Source: an uncultured delta proteobacterium (GTDB taxonomy: Bacteria > Myxococcota_A > UBA9160 > JAFDET01). Taken from it: 58,355 nucleotides of DNA. Below are positions 3,960 to 41,825 of the stretch, piece after piece. The notes below the pieces were generated by a model. That model was not told the DNA's origin and searched no databases. It saw nothing but the letters and a program-made list of their open reading frames with translations. The translations under genes were made by a program, and so were the position numbers. Position 1 is the stretch's first letter. Every line of letters starts with the position of its first letter. Where the stretch lies: positions 1 through 58,355 of the forward strand of contig CAMYLJ010000035.1 in NCBI GenBank assembly GCA_947259215.1. Reading direction: 5' to 3'.

Positions 3960-6900
3960 TCAACGAATCGCGCCGAGGGGATCGTCCCCCACGGCGTCAC
4001 CCAGGCTGCGCAGCGCCTGCGCGAGCGCGGGATCGATCAGCGTGTCCGCCAGCTGCCGCGTGAGCTCCCGGGCCTCGCTGACGCGGCGCGCCGCCTGCTC
4101 GTCGTCGCCGCGGCGGCGGTCCAGCTCCGCCTGGAGCGCAAGGGCGCGCCAGAGCGCGGGCGGGTACTCGATGCGACGCGCCACGCGCACGGCGGCGTCC
4201 AGCGCTTCGTCTGCCTCGTCGCGGCGGTCGCTCGCCACCAGCGCGTGTCCCCGCGCGGCCAGCGCCCGGGCCTCGATCTTCGCGGCGCTGTGCTCGCGCG
4301 CGCCGACCAGCTCCGCTTCCAGGAGCGGCAGCGCCGCTTCCGGGTCGCCCTGAGCGATGAGCAGCCGCGCACACGCGTCGTGGCGGTGCAGGCGGTAGCG
4401 CCAGCGCATCCAGGGGTCGTCGTGGGTCTCCATCTCGGTGTCCAGGCGGTCGAGCTGCTCGTCCGCCTCAGCGAGGTCGCCCAGGACGATCAGGTTCCCG
4501 ACCAGGTTGACCGTGGCGTTGGCGTGGGGCTCCGGCGCGCTGGCGACCAGACCCAGCTCCAGCATCTCGTCGGCCACCTCGACCGAGGCGCGGTTCAGCT
4601 CCACGGCGCGCTCCGGGCAGCCGAGCTCGGCCATGCACCAGCACAGCGTGTTCAGCATCCGTGTCTTCCAGGCCCGGTCGCCGATGTTCCGCGACAGCTC
4701 GAGCCCCTCGCCGATCGCCTCCATCCCCCGCTGGTAGTCGCCCAGACAGATGCTCGACTTGCCCAGCAGCCACAGGCTCGCGATCAGCACCGGCCCGTTG
4801 CGCGTCCCCCGCGCCAGCTCGATGCCGCGCTCCTGCGTGTCGCGGGCGCGTCGGTAGTCGCCGGACCAGTCCGCGTGGTGACCCATCCAGAGCATCAACA
4901 GCGGGGTCAGGATCGGGTGGTCGGGGACCATCGCCGCGGCGCGCTCGAGCGCCGCGCCGAAGTGCGGGATGGCGCCGCGGTTGGTGGCCTGGGTGTACCC
5001 TTCCATGGCGATCGCGAGTGCCTGGCCCGCCTCGTCGTCTTCTGCGCGCGCGCGTTCCAGCGCCCGGGCCAGCAGCTCCTGTGCGCGATCGTAGTCGTGG
5101 CCCCAGTGGAACGCGTAGGCCGACTGGCACAGGCTGAAGGCCTCCTCGCGGGGGGTTTCGGCGAAGCCCGACGCCTGGAGGTAGGCCTCGCCGGCGGGCC
5201 GGAAGTCGCTGACGGCTTCGGTCACCTCGCCGAGCAGCCGCGCCAGGTCGCGACGCCGCGTGCGCGGCACGGCGTCGCCCAGTCGCTCCGCGATGGCCAG
5301 CGCTTCGCGGCAGTGCTCCGCGGCGGTGTGGTTGGCGTAGACTTCGGCCGCCTTGGTGGCCGCACGTGTGTGGTACTCCAGCGCCTTCTGCCACTGCTCC
5401 GCGCGGGCGAAGTGGTGGGCCAGGGCCTCGTAGTGCTCCTCCAGGCGATCGGCGTAGAGCTCCTCGATCGCGCTGCCGACGATGCCGTGGAGCGCCCGCC
5501 TCCGCTGCACCAGCACGCTGTCGTAGGCCACGTCGTGGGTCAGCGCGTGCTTGAACATGAAGGCCAGCTCGGGATGTGCGGCCTTCTCGTAGATCAGCTC
5601 GAGGGCGCGCAGGTCGTCCACCACGTCGCGCATCCGCTCGCCGGCCTCGCTGATGCGCTCGAGCAGCCGCATGGCGAACTCGCGCCCGATCACGGACGCC
5701 AGCTGGATCGCGCGCTTGGGCTCCGCGTCCAGCCGGTCGATGCGCGCCATCAGGATGTCCTGGATGCGATCCGGTACCGCGATGGCGGAGAGGTCGCGCG
5801 CCAGCGAGATCTTTCCGTCCTCTACCTTCAATACGCCCTCTTCCAGCAAGGACTGGGTGACCTCCTCGACGAAGAACGGGTTGCCCTCCGCCTTCTTCAC
5901 GATCAGGTCGCGCAGGGCGTCGGGCACCCCGGAGGCGCGGAGCAGGGCGCCCGCCATGGCGGCCGTCTGATCCGGCTGGAGGCCGCGCAGCGGAATCCGC
6001 AGCTGGAAGCTGCGGTCGCCGAACGGCGCCTTGTAGCCGGGCCGCCAGGTGAAGATCAGGAGGATGCGATGGGCGGGCACCGAGTCCGCCAGGAAGGTGA
6101 GAAACTCCTCCGAGGCCGGGTCGATCCAGTGCAGGTCCTCCACCAGGAAGACCAGCGGCGCCTCGCGCGCGGCGCGCAGCACGCGTTCGCGCAGCGCGCG
6201 CACCGTCTCGCTGCGGCGGGTCGCCGCGTCCATGGCGTCCACCTCCGCGTCGCCCGAGGGCAGCGACAGCAGGCGGCGGGCGAAGGGCAGGGTCCAGGCC
6301 AGCTCGTTGCCGCGAGAGGCCTCGATCGATTCGAGCTTGGCCAGGGCCGCGTCGTCGTCGTCCTGTTCGCCGATACCGAAGCGCCGCCGCCAGGCGTCGC
6401 GGATCGGCTCGAAGGAGCTGGTGCGCCCGAAGGGGCTGCAATGTCCCTCCATCCAGATGTGTGGCTCGTCCTGGAGGCTGTTGCGGAACTCGTAGAGCAG
6501 CCGGGACTTGCCCAGGCCCGCGTCTCCGATCACGAACGCGACGCGGCCCTCGCCGGCCTTGGCGTCTTCGAAGGCGTCGCGCAGGCTCGTCAGCTCGCGC
6601 TCTCGCCCGACGTACGGCGTGAGACCGGTCTTCGCCGCCACCTCGAGCCGCCCGCTGACGTCGCGCTCGGCCAGCACCTCCCAGGCGCGAACGGGTTGGG
6701 ACTTGCCCTTCAGCGCGAGGGCGCCGGCGTCGCGCACGTCGAAGAAGCCCGCCACCAGGTCGGCCGTGACGTCTGACATCAGGATCGTCCCCGGCTGCGC
6801 CGCCCCCTGAAGCCGCGCGGCCAGGTTCATGGTGTCCCCGACGGCCGTGTAGTCCATGCGCAGGTCGTCACCGATCCGGCCCACCACGACCGGGCCCGTG

Positions 6901-7469
6901 TGGATGCCGATGCGCATCTGGAACGGCATGCCGTGGCGCTGCATCACGTCGGCGTGCATGGACTCGAGGCCGTGCAGGATGCCGAGCGAGGCCAGCACCG
7001 CCCTGCGCGGTGCGTCCTCCAGCGCCAGCGGCGCGCCGAAGAGCGCCAGCACGCCGTCGCCCAGGAACTGGTTGACGGTGCCCTCGTAGAGGTGCACCTG
7101 CTCCAGAATGTGCGAGAAGCACAGGTCCATCAGCTGGTGCATCTCCTCCGGGTCGATGCGCTCGGCCATCGGCGTCGAATCCACCAGGTCCGCGAACAGC
7201 ACGCTCACGTGCTTGCGCTCGCCCTCGAGCGCGTCCTTGTTGTGCAGAATCTTCTCGGCCAGGTGGCGGGGGGTGTACTCGCGCGGGTCGCGGACCTCGG
7301 CCGTCTGCGCGGGCTCCGCCGCAACGGCGCTGCCGCAGCCGTCGCAGAAGCGCGCGCCCGGGCGCAGCGCGCGCTCGCAGGCGGGGCAGCGGAGCTCCAG
7401 GCGAGCCCCGCAGCCGTCGCAGAACTGCGCGTCGTCGCGGTTGCTGCGTCGACAGCTCGGGCAATCCAC
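3960..7469 (-). CDS. Class III adenylate/guanylate cyclase with zinc ribbons, AAA ATPase and TPR-like region
   Basis: 1169 aa. Two CxxC...CxxC zinc ribbons occupy residues 3-46. The cyclase homology domain (about 85-225) has FADLVD (Asp94), LGDG (Asp138) as metal ligands and GDTMNLAAR (Asn215, Arg219) as transition-state residues, so it looks catalytically intact. An AAA/STAND ATPase follows, with Walker A GDAGLGKS (315-322) and Walker B LVFLVEDLHW. The remaining half is helical, TPR-like. It should make cAMP or cGMP under control of the ATPase module. A Crp/Fnr regulator lies 3 kb away. The start is GTG at 7467-7469 without a Shine-Dalgarno; a TAGAAT hexamer ends seven bases upstream (leaderless candidate). 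It is transcribed divergently from the aldo/keto reductase. Confidence 0.9.
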   Translation of the reverse strand: MDCPSCRRSNRDDAQFCDGCGARLELRCPACERALRPGARFCDGCGSAVAAEPAQTAEVRDPREYTPRHLAEKILHNKDALEGERKHVSVLFADLVDSTPMAERIDPEEMHQLMDLCFSHILEQVHLYEGTVNQFLGDGVLALFGAPLALEDAPRRAVLASLGILHGLESMHADVMQRHGMPFQMRIGIHTGPVVVGRIGDDLRMDYTAVGDTMNLAARLQGAAQPGTILMSDVTADLVAGFFDVRDAGALALKGKSQPVRAWEVLAERDVSGRLEVAAKTGLTPYVGRERELTSLRDAFEDAKAGEGRVAFVIGDAGLGKSRLLYEFRNSLQDEPHIWMEGHCSPFGRTSSFEPIRDAWRRRFGIGEQDDDDAALAKLESIEASRGNELAWTLPFARRLLSLPSGDAEVDAMDAATRRSETVRALRERVLRAAREAPLVFLVEDLHWIDPASEEFLTFLADSVPAHRILLIFTWRPGYKAPFGDRSFQLRIPLRGLQPDQTAAMAGALLRASGVPDALRDLIVKKAEGNPFFVEEVTQSLLEEGVLKVEDGKISLARDLSAIAVPDRIQDILMARIDRLDAEPKRAIQLASVIGREFAMRLLERISEAGERMRDVVDDLRALELIYEKAAHPELAFMFKHALTHDVAYDSVLVQRRRALHGIVGSAIEELYADRLEEHYEALAHHFARAEQWQKALEYHTRAATKAAEVYANHTAAEHCREALAIAERLGDAVPRTRRRDLARLLGEVTEAVSDFRPAGEAYLQASGFAETPREEAFSLCQSAYAFHWGHDYDRAQELLARALERARAEDDEAGQALAIAMEGYTQATNRGAIPHFGAALERAAAMVPDHPILTPLLMLWMGHHADWSGDYRRARDTQERGIELARGTRNGPVLIASLWLLGKSSICLGDYQRGMEAIGEGLELSRNIGDRAWKTRMLNTLCWCMAELGCPERAVELNRASVEVADEMLELGLVASAPEPHANATVNLVGNLIVLGDLAEADEQLDRLDTEMETHDDPWMRWRYRLHRHDACARLLIAQGDPEAALPLLEAELVGAREHSAAKIEARALAARGHALVASDRRDEADEALDAAVRVARRIEYPPALWRALALQAELDRRRGDDEQAARRVSEARELTRQLADTLIDPALAQALRSLGDAVGDDPLGAIR

Positions 7470-30805: not shown

Positions 30806-31921
30806 ATGAAGGTACGAGCCGCCGTTGCGTTCGAAGCCGCCCGTCCCCTGGAGCTCGCCGAGATCGACCTCGAGGGGCCGAAGCAGGGCGAGTGCCTGGT
30901 GCGCCTGCATGCCACGGGCGTCTGCCACACCGATGCCTACACGCTCTCCGGGCGCGACCCGGAGGGCCTGTTTCCCGCGGTGCTGGGCCACGAGGGAGGC
31001 GGCGTCGTGGAGGAGATCGGCGCGGGCGTCACCTCGCTGGCCCCGGGCGACCACGTGATCCCGCTCTACATCCCTGAGTGCGGAAGCTGCGCCTACTGCA
31101 CGTCGGGCAAGACCAATCTCTGCATCACCCTTCGGGCCACCCAGGGTCAGGGCGTCATGCCCGACGGCACCAGCCGCATCTCCCACGAGGGCCGCACGCT
31201 GCACCACTACATGGGCACTTCCACCTTCGCCGACTACACGGTCGTGCCGGAGATCGCCCTCGCAAAGATCCGCAACGACGCGCCCCTGGAGAAGGTGTGC
31301 CTCCTCGGCTGCGGCATCACCACGGGCATCGGGGCGGTGCTGAACACCGCCAAGGTCGAGCCCGGCGCCAGCGTGGCCGTCTTCGGCCTGGGCGGCGTCG
31401 GCCTTTCGGTGGTGCAGGGGTCGACGATGGCGAAGGCCGGGCGCATCTTCGTCGTGGACAGCAACCCCAAGAAGTTCGAGCTGGCCCGGCAGCTCGGCGC
31501 CAGCGACTGCATCGACCCTGCGGAGGTGGGCGACGTGGTCGAGGCGCTGGTCGAGATGACCGGCGGCGGCGTCGACTACAGCTTCGAAGCCATCGGGAAC
31601 GTGGAGACCATGGGCCAGGCGCTGGCCTGCACGCGGCGCGGCTGGGGACAGTCGATCATCATCGGTGTGGCCGGCGCCGGCGAGGAGATCCACGCGCGCC
31701 CCTTCCTGCTGGTCACCGGCCGCAGCTGGCGCGGCACGGCGTTCGGCGGCACCCGCGGCCGCAGCCAGCTCCCGGGCTACGTGGATCAGTACATGGAGGG
31801 GAGCCTCGAGATCGACGCCTTCGTCAGCGGCAGCCTGCCGCTCGAGCGGATCAACGAGGCCTTCGACCGCATGCACGAAGGCGAGGCGATCCGGACGGTG
31901 ATCGACCTCACAGCCGAGTAG
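30806..31921 (+). CDS. frmA: S-(hydroxymethyl)glutathione dehydrogenase / class III alcohol dehydrogenase
   Basis: 371 aa zinc-dependent dehydrogenase that oxidises the glutathione-formaldehyde adduct and is the main formaldehyde detoxification enzyme in many Proteobacteria. Signatures: [31 protein letters not shown], structural zinc [60 protein letters not shown] and [18 protein letters not shown]. Almost full-length identity to class III ADH patterns. A terminator-like hairpin follows at once. Confidence 0.95.
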
Positions 31922-31926
31922 GGTTC

Positions 31927-31952
31927 GGCCCGCATCGGGCCTGAAACCTTTT
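31927..31952 (+). terminator. Intrinsic-type terminator after frmA
   Basis: GGCCCG-CAT-CGGGCC (31927-31941), extendable by an imperfect TTC/GAA, is followed by TGAAACCTTTTT. It lies five bases after the frmA stop and should separate frmA from the promoter downstream. Confidence 0.65.
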
Positions 31953-32071
31953 TCACACCCTGGGAAAATTTGTTCCGCGATTGGGAAAGGACTTTCGGCC
32001 AGGGTCGGGAAGTACCCGCGGAGAATCCATAATATTCAATGATTACAGATGGTTATATATACGCAAACGCG

Positions 32072-32087
32072 TGGCACGCCGGTTGCA
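32072..32087 (+). promoter_or_regulatory. Consensus sigma-54 (-24/-12) promoter
   Basis: TGGCACGCCGGTTGCA matches the sigma-54 consensus TGGCACR-N4-TTGCW at every fixed position, with correct spacing between GG and GC. Transcription should start near 32097 on the + strand. The 120 bases upstream are unusually AT-rich for this genome (for example CCATAATATTCAATGATTA and GGTTATATATACG), as expected for a bendable region between activator sites and promoter. Small GGAA/TTCC repeats at 31963-31987 are possible activator sites but weak. Confidence 0.8.
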
Positions 32088-32096
32088 AGCACAATG

Positions 32097-32257
32097 GGCG
32101 TCTGTCGAGTTGTCCCAGCTGAAGTTGAGTGGATGCTGAGCGGCCCATGCGGTGTTCCCGTGGAGCGGTTGCAGATGGGGACCCTCGACCGAAAGCGCGG
32201 ATTGACGCGAGCCGTGCGCCACGAACGCCCCGGTGAGAGCCGGGGCGTTCCCTTTTT
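32097..32257 (+). ncRNA. Candidate sigma-54-dependent small RNA
   Basis: This interval runs from the predicted start of the sigma-54 promoter to the end of a perfect 11-bp intrinsic terminator. The only + strand frame with a start near here reads through the terminator and has no ribosome site, and the next gene is on the other strand, so the transcript is probably a free-standing non-coding RNA of about 160 bases. The promoter class suggests nitrogen, stress or quorum control as in Qrr or CrcZ RNAs, but no sequence relation to those is claimed. The rest of the gap 31922-32280 holds only the frmA terminator and the AT-rich stretch. Confidence 0.6.
32223..32257 (+). terminator. Strong rho-independent terminator
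   Basis: GAACGCCCCGG (32223-32233) pairs perfectly with CCGGGGCGTTC (32240-32250) around a six-base loop, followed by CCTTTTTC. The T tract follows only on the + strand, so it terminates a + transcript and does not serve the minus-strand gene at 32281. Confidence 0.88.
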
Positions 32258-32280
32258 CGGGCGCCGCGACGGGCTCCGGG

Positions 32281-32928
32281 CTATCGCAGGTCGAGCTGAC
32301 GCCTCTCCCAGCTGGCGGTGGGAGCCCGGAAGATCAGGAGCCGCCGGGAGGTGCGCACCGTCGCGGAGTTGGCCACCGCGTGCGTGCCCTCGTAGCGCTC
32401 GTTCAGCTGCAGCCGGGCCTCGAAGAAGCCCCCGCGGAACGGTGAGAGGCCGAGCACCCGGCGGTCGGTGACCGCCACCGCCACGTTCTCCCCGACGACG
32501 GCGTCGACCAGCGACTCGTTCGGCCCGAGGCCGCTCTCCACCAGGTTGCCGCTCCCGCCGTCGAAGCCGATGACCCGCAGCCGGGTGGTCAGCAGGGCCA
32601 CGCGCGCCCCGAGCAGCGGCTTCTCGGGCAGGCGCTCCCCGCGACGCCAGCGCTTCTGGGCCCACGAGCCGCTCGTCGTGGTGACGGCGAGGGCGCGTCG
32701 ATCGGTGAGAACGACGCCGACCCGCCCGCGCGCCCGGGTGAAGAGCACCTGCTCGTCGATCTCCAGGTCCGCCGCCAGCTGCCCGCCGTTCCGCGCGTCG
32801 ATGGAGAGGACCTCGCGTTTCAGCACCACGAGTTCGAGATCGTCGGCGACGACCCGCTCGTCGGCGAGCTGCGCCGCCGCCGTGCCCGCCAACGCCAGGC
32901 ACGCGAGGATGAGGACCTTCCGGAGCAT
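32281..32928 (-). CDS. Exported protein built of four internal repeats
   Basis: 215 aa with a signal peptide (LILACLALAGTAAA). After it, four units of roughly 40-45 residues end in related strands: VGVVLTDRRALAVTT, VALLTTRLRVIGF, VAVAVTDRRVLGLSP and ATVRTSRRLLIFRA. The first half of each has an acidic stretch such as LEIDEQVL. This is probably a small beta-propeller or beta-solenoid in the periplasm. No family is recognised. Its 3' end lies 23 bases past the sRNA terminator on the opposite strand. Confidence 0.65.
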   Translation of the reverse strand: MLRKVLILACLALAGTAAAQLADERVVADDLELVVLKREVLSIDARNGGQLAADLEIDEQVLFTRARGRVGVVLTDRRALAVTTTSGSWAQKRWRRGERLPEKPLLGARVALLTTRLRVIGFDGGSGNLVESGLGPNESLVDAVVGENVAVAVTDRRVLGLSPFRGGFFEARLQLNERYEGTHAVANSATVRTSRRLLIFRAPTASWERRQLDLR

Positions 32929-33001: not shown

Positions 33002-33796
33002 GTGGCCCGCAAGCGCTTCGTCGTCGAGTTCACCGGTTCGCCCGGCGCAGGCAAGAGCACCGTGGCCAGCCGCTGCGCCGAGCTCGCGCGCGCACGCGGG
33101 CTGCGGGTGCCCGAGCGCGAGGCGGTGCGCGACCTCTACCTGCGCCACGGTTGGCTGGGCCGCCTCGCAGGTCCGCAGCTCGCCGAGCGCGAGGTGGCGG
33201 GACAGCGTCTCGAGTACTTCAAGGAGGTGGAGACCCCGCGCCTCCTGCGCGGCTTCCGGCTGAGGCACCCGCGCGGGTGGCGTGGCTACCGCGCTGCCCT
33301 CGAAGAGATCCGGGCCGACGATCCGGACGAGGCCGAGGTGCTGGAACGCTGGGTCGACCAGAGCATCCTGACCTGGCGGATGCTGCGGCGCCGGGCGTCG
33401 CGGGTCGACTTCTTCGCCTGGGAGGAGGGGATCGCGCACCGCGCGCTCAACCTGTTCGTGCGCCCGGGACGTCCGCTCGACGAGGACGCGGTGCGCGCGT
33501 TCCTGCGCCGTTGGGCCCTCCCCGACGCGCTGGTGTGGGTGCAGGCAGACACGGATGCGTGTCTGTCGCGGATGGCGGCCCGCGGCCTGCCCGAGCGCCT
33601 CGTGGGTCACGGGCCCGAGGCGGTGCGCGCCTTCGTCGAGTCCGGGGCCCGGGTCTCCGCCGCCATCGCCGCCGAGGCGCGTCGGCGCGGGCTGCCGGTG
33701 TTGGAGCTCGAGAATCGCCAGCCGGACCGGGCTGCGCTGCTGGCCTCGGGGGCGTGCGAAGAGCTGCTGGAGCGGCTGCTGGCGGCGCTGGCCTAG
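33002..33796 (+). CDS. P-loop kinase-like protein (deoxynucleoside/thymidylate kinase-like)
   Basis: 264 aa. Walker A is FTGSPGAGKST at residues 9-19. Later segments (VDQSILTWRMLRRRAS; VWVQADTDACLSRMAARG; LPVLELENRQ) fit the NMP/deoxynucleoside-kinase fold with its base- and LID-like parts. It lies beside a triple-domain protein that also has a kinase domain and ends sharing the stop tetranucleotide CTAG with it. Likely role is phosphorylation of a sugar, lipid or nucleoside in surface-polymer synthesis (inference). GTG 33002 is the only suitable start. Confidence 0.65.
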   Translation: MARKRFVVEFTGSPGAGKSTVASRCAELARARGLRVPEREAVRDLYLRHGWLGRLAGPQLAEREVAGQRLEYFKEVETPRLLRGFRLRHPRGWRGYRAALEEIRADDPDEAEVLERWVDQSILTWRMLRRRASRVDFFAWEEGIAHRALNLFVRPGRPLDEDAVRAFLRRWALPDALVWVQADTDACLSRMAARGLPERLVGHGPEAVRAFVESGARVSAAIAAEARRRGLPVLELENRQPDRAALLASGACEELLERLLAALA

Positions 33797-35967
33797 AGCA
33801 GGTCCCAGATCCCCCGCTTCAGGTCCAGCAGGACGTCCGGGTACTCCCGGTTTCCGTCCACCACGGCGACGGCGTCCGACGGCGCGAGTGCGTTCACGCT
33901 GCGCGCCTTGCGGGCCTGGACCTCCGGGTCGAGGTCGTCCTTGCGCGCGCGCAGGACGGCGGGCTCGGTGCGGAGCGCGAAGGCCCGGGTGGGCGGCGGG
34001 ATGCGGTCGTAGAGCGCCCGCTCCCGCGCCGCCCCTCGCCCGCCGACGAGGCGCGGCCCGTCCATGGGCTCCGGTGGCTCCCACAGGCTCGGCAGCGGGT
34101 AGCGGTCCGCCACCACCACGCCGCCGCGCGCGGCGATCCGCTCGGCGCGCCGCGACTCGCGCACCCGGTGGCAGGCCACCAGCCGCCAGCGCTTGCCCTC
34201 GAGCCAGGCGGCGCCGAAGCGGCGGCTCGCCCAGCGAAGCAGCCGGTAGCGCCGCGAGGCCTTCGGGATGCCGAAGTAGGCGGGTGCGACCTCGAGCTTC
34301 CAGCCGAGCCAGCTCCGGAGGTCCTCGGCCAGGCTGCTCTTGCCCGCTCCGTCGGCGCCGACCAGCGCCACCACCGGACCGCGTCCCGGCAGGCGCTTCC
34401 TGCGCGGCGCCACCCAGCCGCGGCGAGCGGCGCTGGCGAGGGCCCACGCTCGGAGCGCGTCCAGCGTCGCCCGCCAGGCCGGCGCGCGCTGGTACGCGCC
34501 CAGGGCGCGCAGCACGTAGCGTCGGGCGCGCGCGATGTCGGGCGTGGTCACGCTGCGCGCCGCCACGGCGCGGGCGAAGCCGAGCAGCCGATCCGCGTCG
34601 AGCGGCAGCCCGGTCTTGCCCAGGAGCGCCCGGAAGCGCTCGTCGTCGATGCGGGCGACGAGATGGTCGAACTCGCGCACCAGGCTGCTGGGCAGCGTCT
34701 TGGCGCCGTCGCGACGCCAGCGCCGGGCCAGGCGCGGCAGCGAGACCTTCTGCGGCGCCCGGATCGCCAGCAGCAGGAGCTCGAGCTCCGGCGACGGCGC
34801 CCGCACACCCTCCACCTGGGCGACGTCCGAGAGGAGCAGGCCCTCGATGGGCAGGTGGAGGTTCTTGGCCCAGCGCCCGCCCACGACGAGCTGCTCGTGC
34901 AGGTGCAGGTGGGCGAGGCGCCCGCTGTCGCGGTCGAATCCCAGGCGGTCCGACATGCCCGGGAAGCGCCGCTCCGGCGGCGAGACGACGGTCTTGAAGC
35001 CCAGCGCGGCGAGGATGGCGTCCAGCCGCGCGCGCTCCTCCGGCGCCACCAGCAGGTCGAGGTCCGTGCGGCCCGCCAGGGCGGCGCCCAGGTGCTCGTT
35101 GCTCTTCCAGTGGCAGTAGCGCAGTCCCTCTGCGTCGAGCCGGTCGAAGAGGCTGCGGCACAGGGCCAGCGGTGCGTCACCTCCCGCGGCCTGGTCGAGC
35201 AGCTCGCGGCGCTTGCGGGCCACCCGCTCCGGCGCCAGCCCTCCCGCGCGCTGCAAGGTCGCCAGCGCTCGCAGCTTGCCGCGGGCCCGCTCGGCCGCGT
35301 GCACGCGCGACACGTTGGCGTCGTGGATGCGGCGCTGGCAGAGCACGCGCGGCAGGTGGGCGATCGGGAAGCGGCGCGCCAGCCGCACCCAGAACTCCCA
35401 GTCCTCGCCGCCGAAGAGCGAGGTGTCGAAGCCGCCCACCTCCTGGAACGCGCGCCGCCGCACCGCGGCCGAGGCCAGGCGGATGGTCGTGTGTTCGAAG
35501 AGGCGCTCGGCGAGGCCCGGCCCCCAGTCGAGGGCGGCGCGGCGCGCGTTCTCGGCATCCGCCGCTCCCGGGATGGGTCGGCCGTCGGCGGCGATCCACT
35601 CGACGTCGGTGTGCACGGCCGCGAGCGCCGGATCTGCGTCGAGGCGTGCCAGCTGGGCCTCGAGCTTCTCGGGCAGCCAGCGGTCGTCCTGGTCGAGGAA
35701 GGCCAGCACCTCCCCGGATCCGAGGGCCACCGCGTGGGCGCGCGCTCCGGCGGCCCGCTGCGACTCGGCGAGGCGCACGAGCTCGATCCGCTCGGGATGC
35801 GCGGCGAGGTAGGGCGCCACGCGCTCGGCGCTCGCGTCCGGCGACGCGTCGTCCACCACCCACAGCCGCCAGTGCGGCCACGTCTGGGCGAGCACGCTCT
35901 CGATCGCTTCCGCCACCCAGCGCTCGCCGCCGTACACCGGGAGGATCACGTCGACCCTCGGGGTCAC
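33793..35967 (-). CDS. Fusion: family-2 glycosyltransferase + nucleotidyltransferase-like + thymidylate-kinase-like
   Basis: 724 aa. Residues 1 to about 250 are a GT2 domain (VDVILPVYGG, WVVDDASPD, FLDQDDRW, FGGEDWEFWVRLA). Residues about 290-480 resemble the nucleotidyltransferase fold (YCHWKSNEHLGAALAGRTDL with DLDLLVAPEE). Residues about 560-724 are a kinase with Walker A GADGAGKSS and DRYPLPSLW like thymidylate kinase. The GT makes the sugar transfer; the other two may activate or phosphorylate a precursor (inference). GTG 35965-35967 overlaps the stop of the sulfotransferase upstream. All three parts are in one uninterrupted frame, so it is a true fusion. Confidence 0.8.
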   Translation of the reverse strand: MTPRVDVILPVYGGERWVAEAIESVLAQTWPHWRLWVVDDASPDASAERVAPYLAAHPERIELVRLAESQRAAGARAHAVALGSGEVLAFLDQDDRWLPEKLEAQLARLDADPALAAVHTDVEWIAADGRPIPGAADAENARRAALDWGPGLAERLFEHTTIRLASAAVRRRAFQEVGGFDTSLFGGEDWEFWVRLARRFPIAHLPRVLCQRRIHDANVSRVHAAERARGKLRALATLQRAGGLAPERVARKRRELLDQAAGGDAPLALCRSLFDRLDAEGLRYCHWKSNEHLGAALAGRTDLDLLVAPEERARLDAILAALGFKTVVSPPERRFPGMSDRLGFDRDSGRLAHLHLHEQLVVGGRWAKNLHLPIEGLLLSDVAQVEGVRAPSPELELLLLAIRAPQKVSLPRLARRWRRDGAKTLPSSLVREFDHLVARIDDERFRALLGKTGLPLDADRLLGFARAVAARSVTTPDIARARRYVLRALGAYQRAPAWRATLDALRAWALASAARRGWVAPRRKRLPGRGPVVALVGADGAGKSSLAEDLRSWLGWKLEVAPAYFGIPKASRRYRLLRWASRRFGAAWLEGKRWRLVACHRVRESRRAERIAARGGVVVADRYPLPSLWEPPEPMDGPRLVGGRGAARERALYDRIPPPTRAFALRTEPAVLRARKDDLDPEVQARKARSVNALAPSDAVAVVDGNREYPDVLLDLKRGIWDLL

Positions 35968-36794
35968 GGAGCGCCGCCGTAGGCCAGGCGCTGCATCAGC
36001 GGATGGTCGGCCCGGGCGCGGCGCAGCTGGCTCCACTCGGCGTCCCCAGGCCGGGCGTCGTTGCGGCCCGGGTCGACCTCGGCGGCCGCGGCGCGCGCGT
36101 CCGACTCCGACAGGTCCACACCGGCGAAGCTCGCCAGCTCCCGGATCTGCGTCTCCGGCTTCTCCACCAGCGCCTCGTACCGGACGTCGCGCACCTGGCG
36201 CGGCGTCAGGTCCTCGGTGACCCGCAGGCTCGCCTCCACGTACTCGGCCCACAGGTCGAAGGCTCGCTCGGGGTCGAGGCAGCGCGAGGAGCGGATCGGG
36301 TTGGCCAGGCGCCCGCTCCGCTTGCGCTCACGCGTCACCAGGCTCGCCGCGACGTCCACACCGTCGCGGTAGACGTTCACCACCCGCGCCTCGGGAAAGA
36401 CCCGCAGCCAGAGCGGCAAGCTGTAGGTGTTGCGCGGGTCCTTCCAGCCCCAGGGGCCGGTCTGCGCGCCCAGCTCCCGCGCTGCGAGCCAGCGGCGCCA
36501 GCCGAGGAATCTCCGCGCACCGCTGCTCCCGCAGGCCGCCCGGAGCTCCGCCTCCAGGGCTTCGCAGGTGTCCGAGTCCGCGAGCAGGGCTTCCATGCCC
36601 GCAGGCCAGTCCCAGTCCGCGTGGGCCGCCTGGAAGATCCGCTTGTTCTGCTCGCGAAAGAAGTCCGACTCGTCGTGGACGTTGGTGTCGCTGCCGAGGT
36701 GAACGCCCGCCTGCTGAAGCACCCGCGTCACCAGAGAGGTGCCGGAGCGGTGCATGCCCATCACGATGAGCGGCGGACGGCCGGCGAGCGCCAT
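35964..36794 (-). CDS. PAPS-dependent sulfotransferase
   Basis: 276 aa. The 5'-phosphosulfate loop is VMGMHRSGTSLVTRVL and the 3'-phosphate motif is VVNVYRDGVDVAASL. Transfers sulfate from PAPS to a hydroxyl, most likely on a surface glycan or lipid. It is transcribed with the glycosyltransferase fusion downstream (GTGA overlap). A second, different sulfotransferase is 1.5 kb away. Confidence 0.82.
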   Translation of the reverse strand: MALAGRPPLIVMGMHRSGTSLVTRVLQQAGVHLGSDTNVHDESDFFREQNKRIFQAAHADWDWPAGMEALLADSDTCEALEAELRAACGSSGARRFLGWRRWLAARELGAQTGPWGWKDPRNTYSLPLWLRVFPEARVVNVYRDGVDVAASLVTRERKRSGRLANPIRSSRCLDPERAFDLWAEYVEASLRVTEDLTPRQVRDVRYEALVEKPETQIRELASFAGVDLSESDARAAAAEVDPGRNDARPGDAEWSQLRRARADHPLMQRLAYGGAP

Positions 36795-38255: not shown

Positions 38256-39104
38256 GTGTACCGCGAAAAGAAGACCGAACTCCCGCGAATCCGCCTGGCG
38301 ACGGCGGGGCTGCGCGTCCTGCCCCGCTTCCTGATCGTGAGCGTCGAGCGCGGGGGCACCACCTCGCTCTACCGCTACCTGGCCCAGCACCCGTGCGTCG
38401 GCGAGTCCTTCCGCAAGGAGGTGGACTTCTTCGACTTCAACTGGTCGCTGGGGCTCGGCTGGTATCGGGCCCACTTCCCCACGCGTGCGCAGGCGGTCTG
38501 GACCCGGCTGCGCCGCCGGCAGGCGCTCGTCGCCGGCGAGGCCACGCCCTACTACCTGTATCACCCGCAGGTGCCCGCCCGGGTCGCGCGCACGCTCCCC
38601 GACGCCAGAATGGTGGCCTTGGTGCGCAACCCGGTGGACCGGGCCTGGTCCCATTACAACATGAACTGCCGGCAGCAGAAGGAGACGCTCTCGTTCGAGC
38701 AGGCGATCGAGCGCGAAGAGGAGCGGCTGGCGGGTGAGGAAGAGCGCCTGGCTCGCGGCGAGATCGCGTTCAGCGAGAACCACTACAAGTTCGGCTACAA
38801 GCTCCGCGGTCGCTACGCGGAACGCCTCGAGCGCTGGCACGCGCACGTTCCCCGGGAGCGTCTGCTGGTGGTCCCGAGCGAGGATCTCTACGCGGAGCCC
38901 CAGGCGGTGGTGGACCGGGTCTTCGAGTTCCTCGGCCTGGCGCCCTTCCGGCTGCACTCCGTGAAGGCCTACAACCAGAAGCCCTACGACGAGATCGATC
39001 CCGCCACCCGGCGTCGCCTGAGCGAGTACTTCGCGCCCCACAACGCCCGCCTGTACGAGCTGCTGGGCCGCGATCTGGGCTGGGATCGCCCTCCCCCGGG
39101 GTAG
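38256..39104 (+). CDS. Sulfotransferase (heparan sulfate/N-sulfotransferase-like)
   Basis: 282 aa. Motifs are LPRFLIVSVERGGTTSLY (5'-PSB), VALVRNPVDRAWSHYNM (3'-PB), and YKFGYKLRGRYAERLERWHAH to VVPSEDLYAEPQAVVDRVFEFLGL, which resemble bacterial and animal heparan-type sulfotransferases. Acts with PAPS on a glycan acceptor. The GTG at 38256 is used; the frame has no better start. It forms part of the surface-sugar region. Confidence 0.82.
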   Translation: MYREKKTELPRIRLATAGLRVLPRFLIVSVERGGTTSLYRYLAQHPCVGESFRKEVDFFDFNWSLGLGWYRAHFPTRAQAVWTRLRRRQALVAGEATPYYLYHPQVPARVARTLPDARMVALVRNPVDRAWSHYNMNCRQQKETLSFEQAIEREEERLAGEEERLARGEIAFSENHYKFGYKLRGRYAERLERWHAHVPRERLLVVPSEDLYAEPQAVVDRVFEFLGLAPFRLHSVKAYNQKPYDEIDPATRRRLSEYFAPHNARLYELLGRDLGWDRPPPG

Positions 39105-39177: not shown

Positions 39178-39339
39178 GTGAGAGGTGCACTCGCAGTGGT
39201 GATCGTGGCGGCCGCGCTGGCCGCCGCCTGGCTCCAGTCGAAGACGGATCCGAACGCGGCGACGCCGCCCGGCGCCACGTCCGCGGCGGAGGCCGGGCTG
39301 CTCGATTCCGAGCCGTGGAGCGCGCCGCGCGAACGCTAG
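39178..39339 (+). CDS. Small single-pass membrane protein (53 aa)
   Basis: GTG 39178 with CAGGAGGGG just upstream opens a 53-residue frame: an N-terminal hydrophobic helix (GALAVVIVAAALAAAWLQ) then a short Thr/Pro/Ala-rich tail. It ends inside the start region of the next gene (25-base overlap), which supports translation coupling. No homologue is recognised; it could be a membrane tether or a subunit of the neighbouring lipoprotein system. Confidence 0.55.
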   Translation: MRGALAVVIVAAALAAAWLQSKTDPNAATPPGATSAAEAGLLDSEPWSAPRER

Positions 39340-41825
39340 AACCCGCGGCGGCCGCGCCCGCGCCCGCTGCGCGCGATCCTGCCGCCACGCCCCTGCTTCG
39401 CGCACCCGTCGCCGGCCTGCTGGCGATCGCGCTGGCCCTGGTCGCGTGCTCGGAAGCCCCGGTCGACCCGCCGCCCGCGGCTCCTTCCGACGCCGAGATC
39501 GCACGCCTCGAGGCCCTGGGCTACGTGGACTTCGCCGGGGTGGCGCGGGGTGGCGACGCGGCGGGCGTCGCGCTCCACGACGCCTCGCGTGCCCACGGCG
39601 GCTACAGCCTCTTCACCTATCCCGCCCTCACGCGCGCGGAGCTGGTGGACGCGAGCGGGCGCGTGATCCGAAGCTGGCAGGGCACGGTCCCGGGTAAATG
39701 GGAGCGGGCGCTCCTCAGCGCGGACGGCCACCTGCTCGTGGTGGCGGCGGAGGAAGGCCCCGGCGAGCCGGGATCCGCCCGGCGTCGGGTCATCCTGAAG
39801 CTCGCCCCGGACGGCGGCCAGGTGTGGCGGCGGGTCCTCCCGGCCCACCATCACGTCGTGGCCCGGCAGGACGGCACGATCGCGGCCCTGACCCGCCGCC
39901 TGCGCAGCGACGACGACGAGGCTCGCCTGCTGGACAACGGCATCGCGCTGCTCGACGCAGACGGCGAGCTGCTCGAGGAGCGCTCGATCCTCGACATGCT
40001 GCGCGCCCGTCCCGACGTGCTGGTCCCGCGCCCCCGCGTGGACGCGGAAGGCGCGCCCATCCCCGACCTGCTGCACGCCAACTACCTGCACTGGCTGGCC
40101 GACCCCGTGCTGGCCGCGCGCGACCCCTTCTACGCCGAAGGCCGGGTCCTCGTCACCCTCCGCAACCAGGACGCCGTCGTCCTCTTCGACTGGCAGCGCG
40201 GCGAGGCGGTCTGGGCCTGGGGTCCGGGGCAGCTCAGCGCGCCCCACGACGCCTCGCTGCTGGCCGACGGCCACGTGCTGATCTTCGACAACCGGCCCGG
40301 CGAGGGCGCCTCGCGGATCGTCGAGCTCGACCCGCTGGCGCGCGAGATCGTGTGGCAGTACCGCGCCCCGGGGCCCGGCGAGTTCGCGTCGGACACCCGC
40401 GGCACCGTCCAGCGGCTCGCGAACGGCAGCACGCTGATCGGAGAGTCGAACGCCGGACGCGCCTTCGAGGTCACAGCCGGCGGCGAGGTCGTGTGGGAGT
40501 ACTGGGTTCCGCACCGCGACGACCGGGGCTTCCGCGCGGCCTTCCGGGTGCGGCGCTACGAGCCCGCCGAGGTGCGCGCTCTCGTGGGCGCCGACTCCGC
40601 CTCGCTCTCCGAAGCCGAGCTGGAGCGCCTCTCGACCCTCGGCTACCTGGACTACTCGCTGGAGGCCGTCGATCCCGCGCGCAGCGGGCTGGTGGCCTTC
40701 GACCCGCAGCGCTCGCAGCCCGGGTACACGCTCTACAGCCTGCGCGCCCTGCGCCGGGCCGAGCTGGTCGACTGGCGCGGGGATCGGGTGCACGCCTGGG
40801 AGCAGTCGGCTCCGGGTCACTGGGACCGCGCCGTACTGGTGGCCGACGGCGGGCTGCTCGTCGTGGGAAGCGAGCACGATCTCGACGCCGCGGGCCAGGT
40901 GGCTTCGTCGCGGCCCTTCCTGCGGCGGCTCGAGCCGGACGGCGCGATCGCCTGGAGCCTGGCGCTGCCCGCCCATCACGACGTGGCCCCGGGGCCGGGC
41001 GATCGCTGGTCCGTGCTGACGCGCCGGCTGCGGAGCCTGCCCGGCGTCGGGTCGGACGTCCCCGTGCGAGACGACGGCGTCGCGCTGGTGTCGGGGGAGG
41101 GGGCCGTTCTCGAGGAGCGCTCGCTCTACGAGATGCTGGCCGCAGACCCCGAGCGCTTCCGCTTCGCCGACGTCGAGCCGCGGCTGCTGAAGCCCGCCTT
41201 CGGCGACCTGGTGGACGGCCGCCCGGACCTCGCCGCGAGCGCGGCGCGCGGCTTCGTCGACCTGCTGCACGCCAACGCGGTCCAGTGGATGGACCGGCCC
41301 GAGCTGGCGGCCCGTTCCCCGCTCTACGCGCCGGGAAACGTGATCGTCACCCTGCGCAACCAGGACACCGTCGCGGTCTTCGACTGGCAGGCCGGGCGCG
41401 TGGTCTGGGCCTGGGGCCCGGGCGAGATCCACCAGCCCCACGACGCCAGCCTGCTTGCCGACGGACGCTTCCTGGTCTTCGACAACCGCCGCCACCGCGG
41501 CTGGTCCCGCGTCGTAGAGGTGGACCCGCAGACGCGTCGCATCGTGTGGGAGTACCGCGCGCCGACCCCCGAGGATTTCTATACGGGCACGCGCGGCTCG
41601 GCCCAGCGCCTCCCGAACGGGAACACCCTGATCGCGGACTCGGACTCGGGACGTGGGTTCGAGGTGACCCCCGACGGCGCGGTCGTCTGGGACTTCCGCG
41701 TGCCCCACGTGGACGCCGCCTCGCGCCGTGCCACGGTCGTGCGCATGCGGCGCTACGACGACGGCTTCGTGAGCGCGCTTCTCGCGCGCCAGAAGGCGCC
41801 GACCGCCAGCGAGCCGATTCCGTAG
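39315..41825 (+). CDS. Duplicated arylsulfotransferase-like (ASST/PQQ-propeller) lipoprotein
   Basis: 836 aa. A lipobox LALVACSEA near residue 40 marks it as an outer-surface or periplasmic lipoprotein. The rest is two tandem copies of a beta-propeller unit. Each starts with an LGY motif (EIARLEALGYVDF; ELERLSTLGYLDY), then GYSLFTYPAL / GYTLYSLRAL, and later NQDAVVLFDWQRGEAVWAWG / NQDTVAVFDWQAGRVVWAWG, PHDASLLADG and FEVTAGGEVVWEY / FEVTPDGAVVWDF. This is the arylsulfate sulfotransferase-type fold, so each half may transfer sulfate or bind a ligand; catalytic His candidates include AHHHV and AHHDV. It begins with GTG 39315 and overlaps the small membrane-protein frame. Confidence 0.78.
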   Translation: MERAARTLEPAAAAPAPAARDPAATPLLRAPVAGLLAIALALVACSEAPVDPPPAAPSDAEIARLEALGYVDFAGVARGGDAAGVALHDASRAHGGYSLFTYPALTRAELVDASGRVIRSWQGTVPGKWERALLSADGHLLVVAAEEGPGEPGSARRRVILKLAPDGGQVWRRVLPAHHHVVARQDGTIAALTRRLRSDDDEARLLDNGIALLDADGELLEERSILDMLRARPDVLVPRPRVDAEGAPIPDLLHANYLHWLADPVLAARDPFYAEGRVLVTLRNQDAVVLFDWQRGEAVWAWGPGQLSAPHDASLLADGHVLIFDNRPGEGASRIVELDPLAREIVWQYRAPGPGEFASDTRGTVQRLANGSTLIGESNAGRAFEVTAGGEVVWEYWVPHRDDRGFRAAFRVRRYEPAEVRALVGADSASLSEAELERLSTLGYLDYSLEAVDPARSGLVAFDPQRSQPGYTLYSLRALRRAELVDWRGDRVHAWEQSAPGHWDRAVLVADGGLLVVGSEHDLDAAGQVASSRPFLRRLEPDGAIAWSLALPAHHDVAPGPGDRWSVLTRRLRSLPGVGSDVPVRDDGVALVSGEGAVLEERSLYEMLAADPERFRFADVEPRLLKPAFGDLVDGRPDLAASAARGFVDLLHANAVQWMDRPELAARSPLYAPGNVIVTLRNQDTVAVFDWQAGRVVWAWGPGEIHQPHDASLLADGRFLVFDNRRHRGWSRVVEVDPQTRRIVWEYRAPTPEDFYTGTRGSAQRLPNGNTLIADSDSGRGFEVTPDGAVVWDFRVPHVDAASRRATVVRMRRYDDGFVSALLARQKAPTASEPIP

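Follow-up and report, generated by a model that had tools for sequence, protein, structure and literature searches.

Small RNAs under sigma-54 are a known kind, with Qrr, CrcZ, GlmY, Pxr and Dv_sRNA2 as described members. Qrr of Vibrio and CrcZ/CrcY of Pseudomonas are sigma-54-dependent and stand under an NtrC-type activator. Pxr of Myxococcus xanthus, a 108-nt RNA that restrains fruiting-body development, appears to have a sigma-54 promoter with an enhancer region ahead of it, and its neighbours are its activator gene nla19/pxrR and a gene for NADH dehydrogenase (PMC5568312, PMC5684412). In Enterobacteriaceae, QseF/GlrR drives both GlmY and rpoE, the sigma-54 promoter of GlmY carrying three activator sites (PMC6075780), and Dv_sRNA2 of Desulfovibrio vulgaris is a target of the response regulator DVU0679 (PMC3333781). 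Among protein genes, control by sigma-54 and an upstream, sometimes repeated activator motif is established for PEP-CTERM genes of Proteobacteria (Haft 2006, PMC1569441), and RpoN dependence has been measured for one of them (PMC9850573). Many environmental bacteria sort PEP-CTERM proteins to the cell surface or matrix, and little is known of how these proteins are regulated.

We analysed a gene-free gap next to frmA in a 58,355-nucleotide stretch of DNA from an uncultured delta proteobacterium (hereinafter the window). Judged by its sequence and that of its relatives, the gap very probably encodes a real sigma-54-dependent small RNA that represents a new family and is connected with a PEP-CTERM/exported-protein regulon. 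The initial annotation of the window had proposed such an RNA and had called the kind rare, with Qrr and CrcZ as the known cases; that list proved short, Pxr, GlmY and Dv_sRNA2 being of sigma-54 type as well. It saw no visible relation of the RNA to Qrr or CrcZ; the RNA matches no family of Rfam release 15 at gathering score, Qrr, CrcZ and GlmY/GlmZ included. The best Rfam score, 20 bits for sX6 against 40 needed, concerns the terminator region only.

Compared with the described systems, the locus shows partial likenesses. Like Pxr, the RNA belongs to Myxococcota, combines stem-loops with a 3′ hairpin and has a narrow range (one suborder for Pxr), but it is flanked by frmA and the gene of an exported 215-aa protein; it would be a second sigma-54 small RNA in Myxococcota beside Pxr, apparently unrelated to it, a distinction drawn from location and description. 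With GlmY it shares a sigma-54 promoter with upstream activator sites, a possible link to an ECF sigma factor gene and an envelope theme, whereas the activator motifs differ (TGT-N12-ACA at GlmY, GGAA-N6-TTCC here), no Rfam sequence match connects the two, and the ECF gene in the genomes with the RNA carries a weaker dyad of 7/8 bases. The parallel of this dyad-bearing ECF gene and the RNA with QseF-GlmY-rpoE is suggestive only. Dv_sRNA2, too, comes from a bacterium once classed as a deltaproteobacterium and is a small RNA controlled by a response regulator, but adjoins its own regulator gene, and the PEP-CTERM targets of that organism belong to DVUA0057 instead (PMC3333781). The Haft-type (PrsK-PrsR) arrangement agrees with the locus in a motif 32-92 bp upstream of the -24/-12 element, a response-regulator-type activator and an architecture shared with PEP-CTERM genes; it differs in that motif 1 ends in TTTACA where the RNA has GGAA-N6-TTCC, that PrsR and PrsK score below cut-off in our genomes, and that no non-coding regulon member is described there (PMC1569441, PMC9850573). 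In the literature searched, we found no description of a small RNA linked to PEP-CTERM promoters.

The predicted small-RNA unit and its conservation

The elements listed by the initial annotation, namely a consensus -24/-12 promoter, an AT-rich upstream segment unlike the rest of the window, a perfect 11-bp terminator with a T tract on the same strand and an oppositely directed next gene, were all recovered (Table 1). When the window was scanned with TGGCAC-N5-TTGCW, the promoter was the sole exact match, the remaining 17 matches each having 2 mismatches and together being about as numerous as expected by chance. The terminator stem-loop (32223-32250) forms 12 pairs including a G-T pair, 11 of them perfect, is followed by CCTTTTT and lies 152 bp from the promoter. 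AT content reaches 77.5% in the 40-base segment between activator sites and promoter, against 27.4% in the whole window; an IHF site in this spacer, mildly enriched across the order, is not significant at the RNA locus and not established. The frmA product matches TIGR02818 at 620 bits, above cut-off, and the minus-strand neighbour is a real gene, whose product is 62-68% identical in relatives, begins like a signal peptide and matches no known family.

Table 1 Features of the small-RNA locus and of the nearby activator-like genes in the window
Feature	Position	Strand	Remarks
Sigma-54-activator-like protein without GAFTGA loop	21026-22117	+	directly before the NtrC-like gene
NtrC-like sigma-54 activator, GAYTGA loop	22119-23417	+	candidate for the dyads by place alone; same neighbourhood in G001 and G002
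frmA/adhC, S-(hydroxymethyl)glutathione dehydrogenase	30806-31921	+	upstream neighbour; TIGR02818
Third, weakest putative activator dyad TGAAACCTTTTTCA	31942-31955	+	6/8 bases; 21 bp upstream of next dyad
Putative activator dyad GGAAAATTTGTTCC	31963-31976	+	8/8 bases; 109 bp upstream of -24
Putative activator dyad GGAAAGGACTTTCG	31984-31997	+	7/8 bases; 88 bp upstream of -24
AT-rich spacer between activator sites and promoter	32022-32061	+	most AT-rich 40 bases of the window
Sigma-54 -24/-12 promoter TGGCACgccggTTGCA	32072-32087	+	pattern match; conserved in G001, G002 and G003
Predicted small RNA, ~160 nt	32098-32257	+	start inferred from -12 element; no conserved reading frame
3′ hairpin GCGCGG..CCGUGC	32195-32219	+	stem identical in 4/4; invariant 17-mer GACGCGAGCCGTGCGCC (32204-32220) in loop and 3′ arm
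Intrinsic terminator GAACGCCCCGG..CCGGGGCGTTC with T tract	32223-32257	+	kept in 4/4 family genomes
Convergent neighbour, probably exported 215-aa protein	32281-32928	-	family unknown; conserved in relatives

The family of the window's genome comprises four genomes in our collection, the window's own (G000, 5.7 Mb) and three others (G001, G002 and G003), and the RNA unit is present in all of them. A DNA search with the gap sequence returned one strong match in each of the three relatives, always adjoining frmA. The -24/-12 site is at consensus in G000, G001 and G003 and has one change (TGGCAT) in G002, with GG/GC kept throughout; the distance from -24 is 130-134 bp to the 17-mer core and 150-154 bp to the terminator (AACGCCCCG..), which each genome has. 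The loop of the 3′ hairpin is 3-4 bases shorter in the window's genome than in the relatives. The RNA body between promoter and 3′ domain is poorly conserved, with many changes, and its predicted folding stability is not above that of shuffled sequence; a closing stem of the 5′ domain appears in predicted folds, with pairing of its own arms beating swapped arms only partly. Covariation is weak because the family sample amounts to four sequences, in effect three lineages, from two genera.

In G001, the whole unit including the upstream sites is inverted, with both neighbours unmoved. Such an inversion fits an independent transcription unit and would be hard to explain unless the RNA unit works autonomously. 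The initial annotation had named missing conservation of promoter and terminator in relatives as a result against its proposal; comparison of the frmA gap found the same unit in the three others, once inverted, with promoter, 3′ hairpin, terminator and spacing kept in all four genomes, which, together with the inversion, supports its reading of a sigma-54-dependent small RNA.

A covariance search, another of its suggestions, was made with a model of the 3′ domain. Family members reach 78-105 bits and the next best genome of order and class 43 bits (80 genomes searched order-wide, 91 class-wide), with no relative outside the family; the weaker matches that were read are generic terminators lacking the 17-mer and the promoter. 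A scan of 84,980 species for the exact core returned only the three family members and two chance matches in coding regions, and the combination of a -24/-12 element and a terminator downstream of frmA is absent from 26 loci examined in other families of the order. By these searches the RNA forms a separate family of narrow range. A possible paralogue on contig C17 of G000 was rejected, being only the terminator of a PEP-CTERM gene.

Upstream dyads and the sigma-54 regulon

Two further features, the upstream dyads and a shared regulon, are new here and go beyond the earlier reading of the sequence. All four genomes have in common a GGAA-N6-TTCC dyad pattern upstream of the promoter, a putative activator-binding site, positioned at -109/-88 in G000, -107/-86 in G002 and G003, and -108/-85 in G001. 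In G000, G002 and G003 the two dyads are 21 bp apart and a weaker third lies 21 bp further up, its counterparts in G002 and G003 (at -128) being stronger than that of the window; G001 has an additional 7/8 dyad at -138. At 31963-31997 stands the sole tandem of the 5.7-Mb genome that deviates from the pattern by no more than one mismatch (the one at 31942-31976 has 2 mismatches). G003 likewise has its single tandem of this quality upstream of the RNA unit, and so does G002 with its single perfect one. The RNA locus is the best tandem-dyad match genome-wide in three of the four genomes; G001 has a perfect match elsewhere (C236), before another exported-protein gene with its own -24/-12-like site.

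All four genomes encode rpoN (PF04552, 211-217 bits). Each genome has 11-25 exact TGGCAY-N5-TTGCW sites, compared with 0-2 matches to the pattern in reverse, and these sites precede genes for an ammonium transporter (amt), a pilin-like protein, an ECF sigma factor and exported proteins, the excess and the nature of these genes indicating a real RpoN regulon. A combined pattern (dyad, 67-97 bp, GGCA-N6-TTGC) matched 16 times across the four genomes, compared with none for its reversed control. After removal of one duplicate and one mirror match at C17, the matches consist of the four RNA loci, five intact PEP-CTERM genes (G000:C17, G000:C21, G002:C90, G002:C167 and G002:C255), one truncated PEP-CTERM gene (G003:C13), three genes for other exported proteins (G001:C236, G002:C9 and G003:C78) and one locus with an unclear leader (G002:C45). 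This evidence places the RNA, most probably as a non-coding component, in a sigma-54 envelope/PEP-CTERM regulon. The PEP-CTERM gene that is intact in G002:C90 is cut off after the signal peptide in G003:C13, promoter and dyad staying in place.

Across 80 genomes of the order, a stricter dyad and -24/-12 pattern gave about 130 matches against 1 in the control, with PEP-CTERM and exported-protein genes among those downstream. GGAA-N6-TTCC before a -24/-12 element appears from this distribution to define an order-wide regulon. A short unit ending in a terminator follows the promoter at none of the 26 order-wide loci of this architecture that were read. The element occurs at 3 of 30 PEP-CTERM loci sampled and so marks a sub-regulon. 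The best PrsR (TIGR02915) score is 438 bits against 502.6, and the best PrsK (TIGR02916) score 121 against 300; dozens of NtrC-like proteins are encoded, none above the PrsR cut-off. These scores and the different motif letters point to a PEP-CTERM-linked sigma-54 regulon and not to the Prs system itself.

In all four family genomes, a conserved sigma-54 promoter and a 7/8 dyad at -113 precede the ECF sigma factor gene. Within the 5′ leader of this gene, a conserved GGGAC..GTCCCCACTTCTGAGA element might base-pair with AGAAGTG, which lies immediately upstream of the start codon. On contig C11 of G000 (75703-75900), dyads with 2 mismatches and a -24/-12-like site AGGCACCAACTTGCT stand ahead of a PEP-CTERM gene, and a strong terminator hairpin with T8 follows within ~35 nt of that site; a leader attenuator and a second short RNA of the PEP-CTERM regulon are both compatible readings.

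A model for the RNA and its rivals

In the model we favour, and consider probable as a whole, RNA polymerase with sigma-54 would produce the ~160-nt non-coding RNA from its -24/-12 promoter once an NtrC-like enhancer-binding protein has bound the tandem dyads 85-130 bp upstream of -24. The same activator would also control several PEP-CTERM and other exported-protein genes, possibly along with the ECF sigma factor, and the RNA would accumulate while an envelope/extracellular-matrix programme is on, adjusting mRNAs in trans, most likely by base pairing through the invariant 3′ hairpin region.

A serious rival, if an unlikely one, is a GlmY- or CrcZ-like RNA that binds or titrates a protein instead of pairing with mRNAs. 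The most conserved part of the RNA is a hairpin with a conserved loop and not an open stretch, no complementary target stood out in the leaders of regulon genes or neighbours, and GlmY, the closest analogue in control logic, acts via RapZ (PMC6075780). Against such a role, the RNA offers no repeated protein-binding motif and no candidate protein: inspection of the four genomes found 2 to 5 GGA motifs at unconserved positions, on which ground a CsrA sponge was rejected. The locus might instead be the relic of a PEP-CTERM gene, with promoter, activator sites and terminator left behind and a functionless transcript. Its promoter is of the PEP-CTERM type, its terminator is resembled by that of the PEP-CTERM gene at G000:C17, and decay of this sort is seen at G003:C13, where promoter and gene start survive. 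However, decay would not have spared every base of the 17-mer, left both hairpin arms and held the length to within 4 bp across two genera, and the unit is still complete after inversion in G001; we regard a functionless remnant as improbable, and descent from such a remnant as a possible evolutionary origin of the RNA.

The position of the unit between two 3′ ends, in a gap where no minus-strand terminator was found, would also suit a cis element that serves frmA as 3′ UTR or terminator, or that counters read-through from the minus-strand neighbour as an antisense RNA. This is very unlikely: the unit carries a promoter and activator sites of its own, and its reversal between the same two genes in G001 means that neither cis relation is conserved. 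Hardly any weight falls on a transcript coding for a short peptide, as frames of 28-42 codons with GTG or ATG starts are present in G000 and G001, but frames, starts and stops are unshared, the frames listed for G002 and G003 have TTG starts only, and no reading frame in the RNA unit is common to the four family genomes.

A conserved RNA under the same type of activator site and the same sigma factor as PEP-CTERM genes would add a post-transcriptional arm to the PEP-CTERM regulon, and its promoter is a clean handle for finding the activator and its signal. More tentatively, and with some doubt on our part, a single tandem-dyad activator may drive the small RNA, PEP-CTERM matrix proteins and the ECF sigma factor together, which would make the system an independent Myxococcota counterpart of QseF-GlmY-RpoE and the RNA the first tied to PEP-CTERM.

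Activator-like genes and the wider neighbourhood

The two sigma-54 activator-like genes that the initial annotation had placed 9 kb away were both located, but a GAFTGA-type loop (GAYTGA) is present only in the second. The product of the first, lacking this loop, would probably not activate sigma-54 on its own.

Elsewhere in the window, a large protein encoded at 3960-7469 (-) has a partial match to a TOMM-system kinase/cyclase fusion (334 bits, below cut-off). The region adjoining the RNA (33793-36252 (-), 35964-36794 (-), 38256-39104 (+) and 39315-41825 (+)) encodes a fusion of glycosyltransferase 2, nucleotidyltransferase-like and P-loop parts, then sulfotransferases and an arylsulfotransferase-like protein, and looks by its predicted products like a locus for surface-polysaccharide modification.
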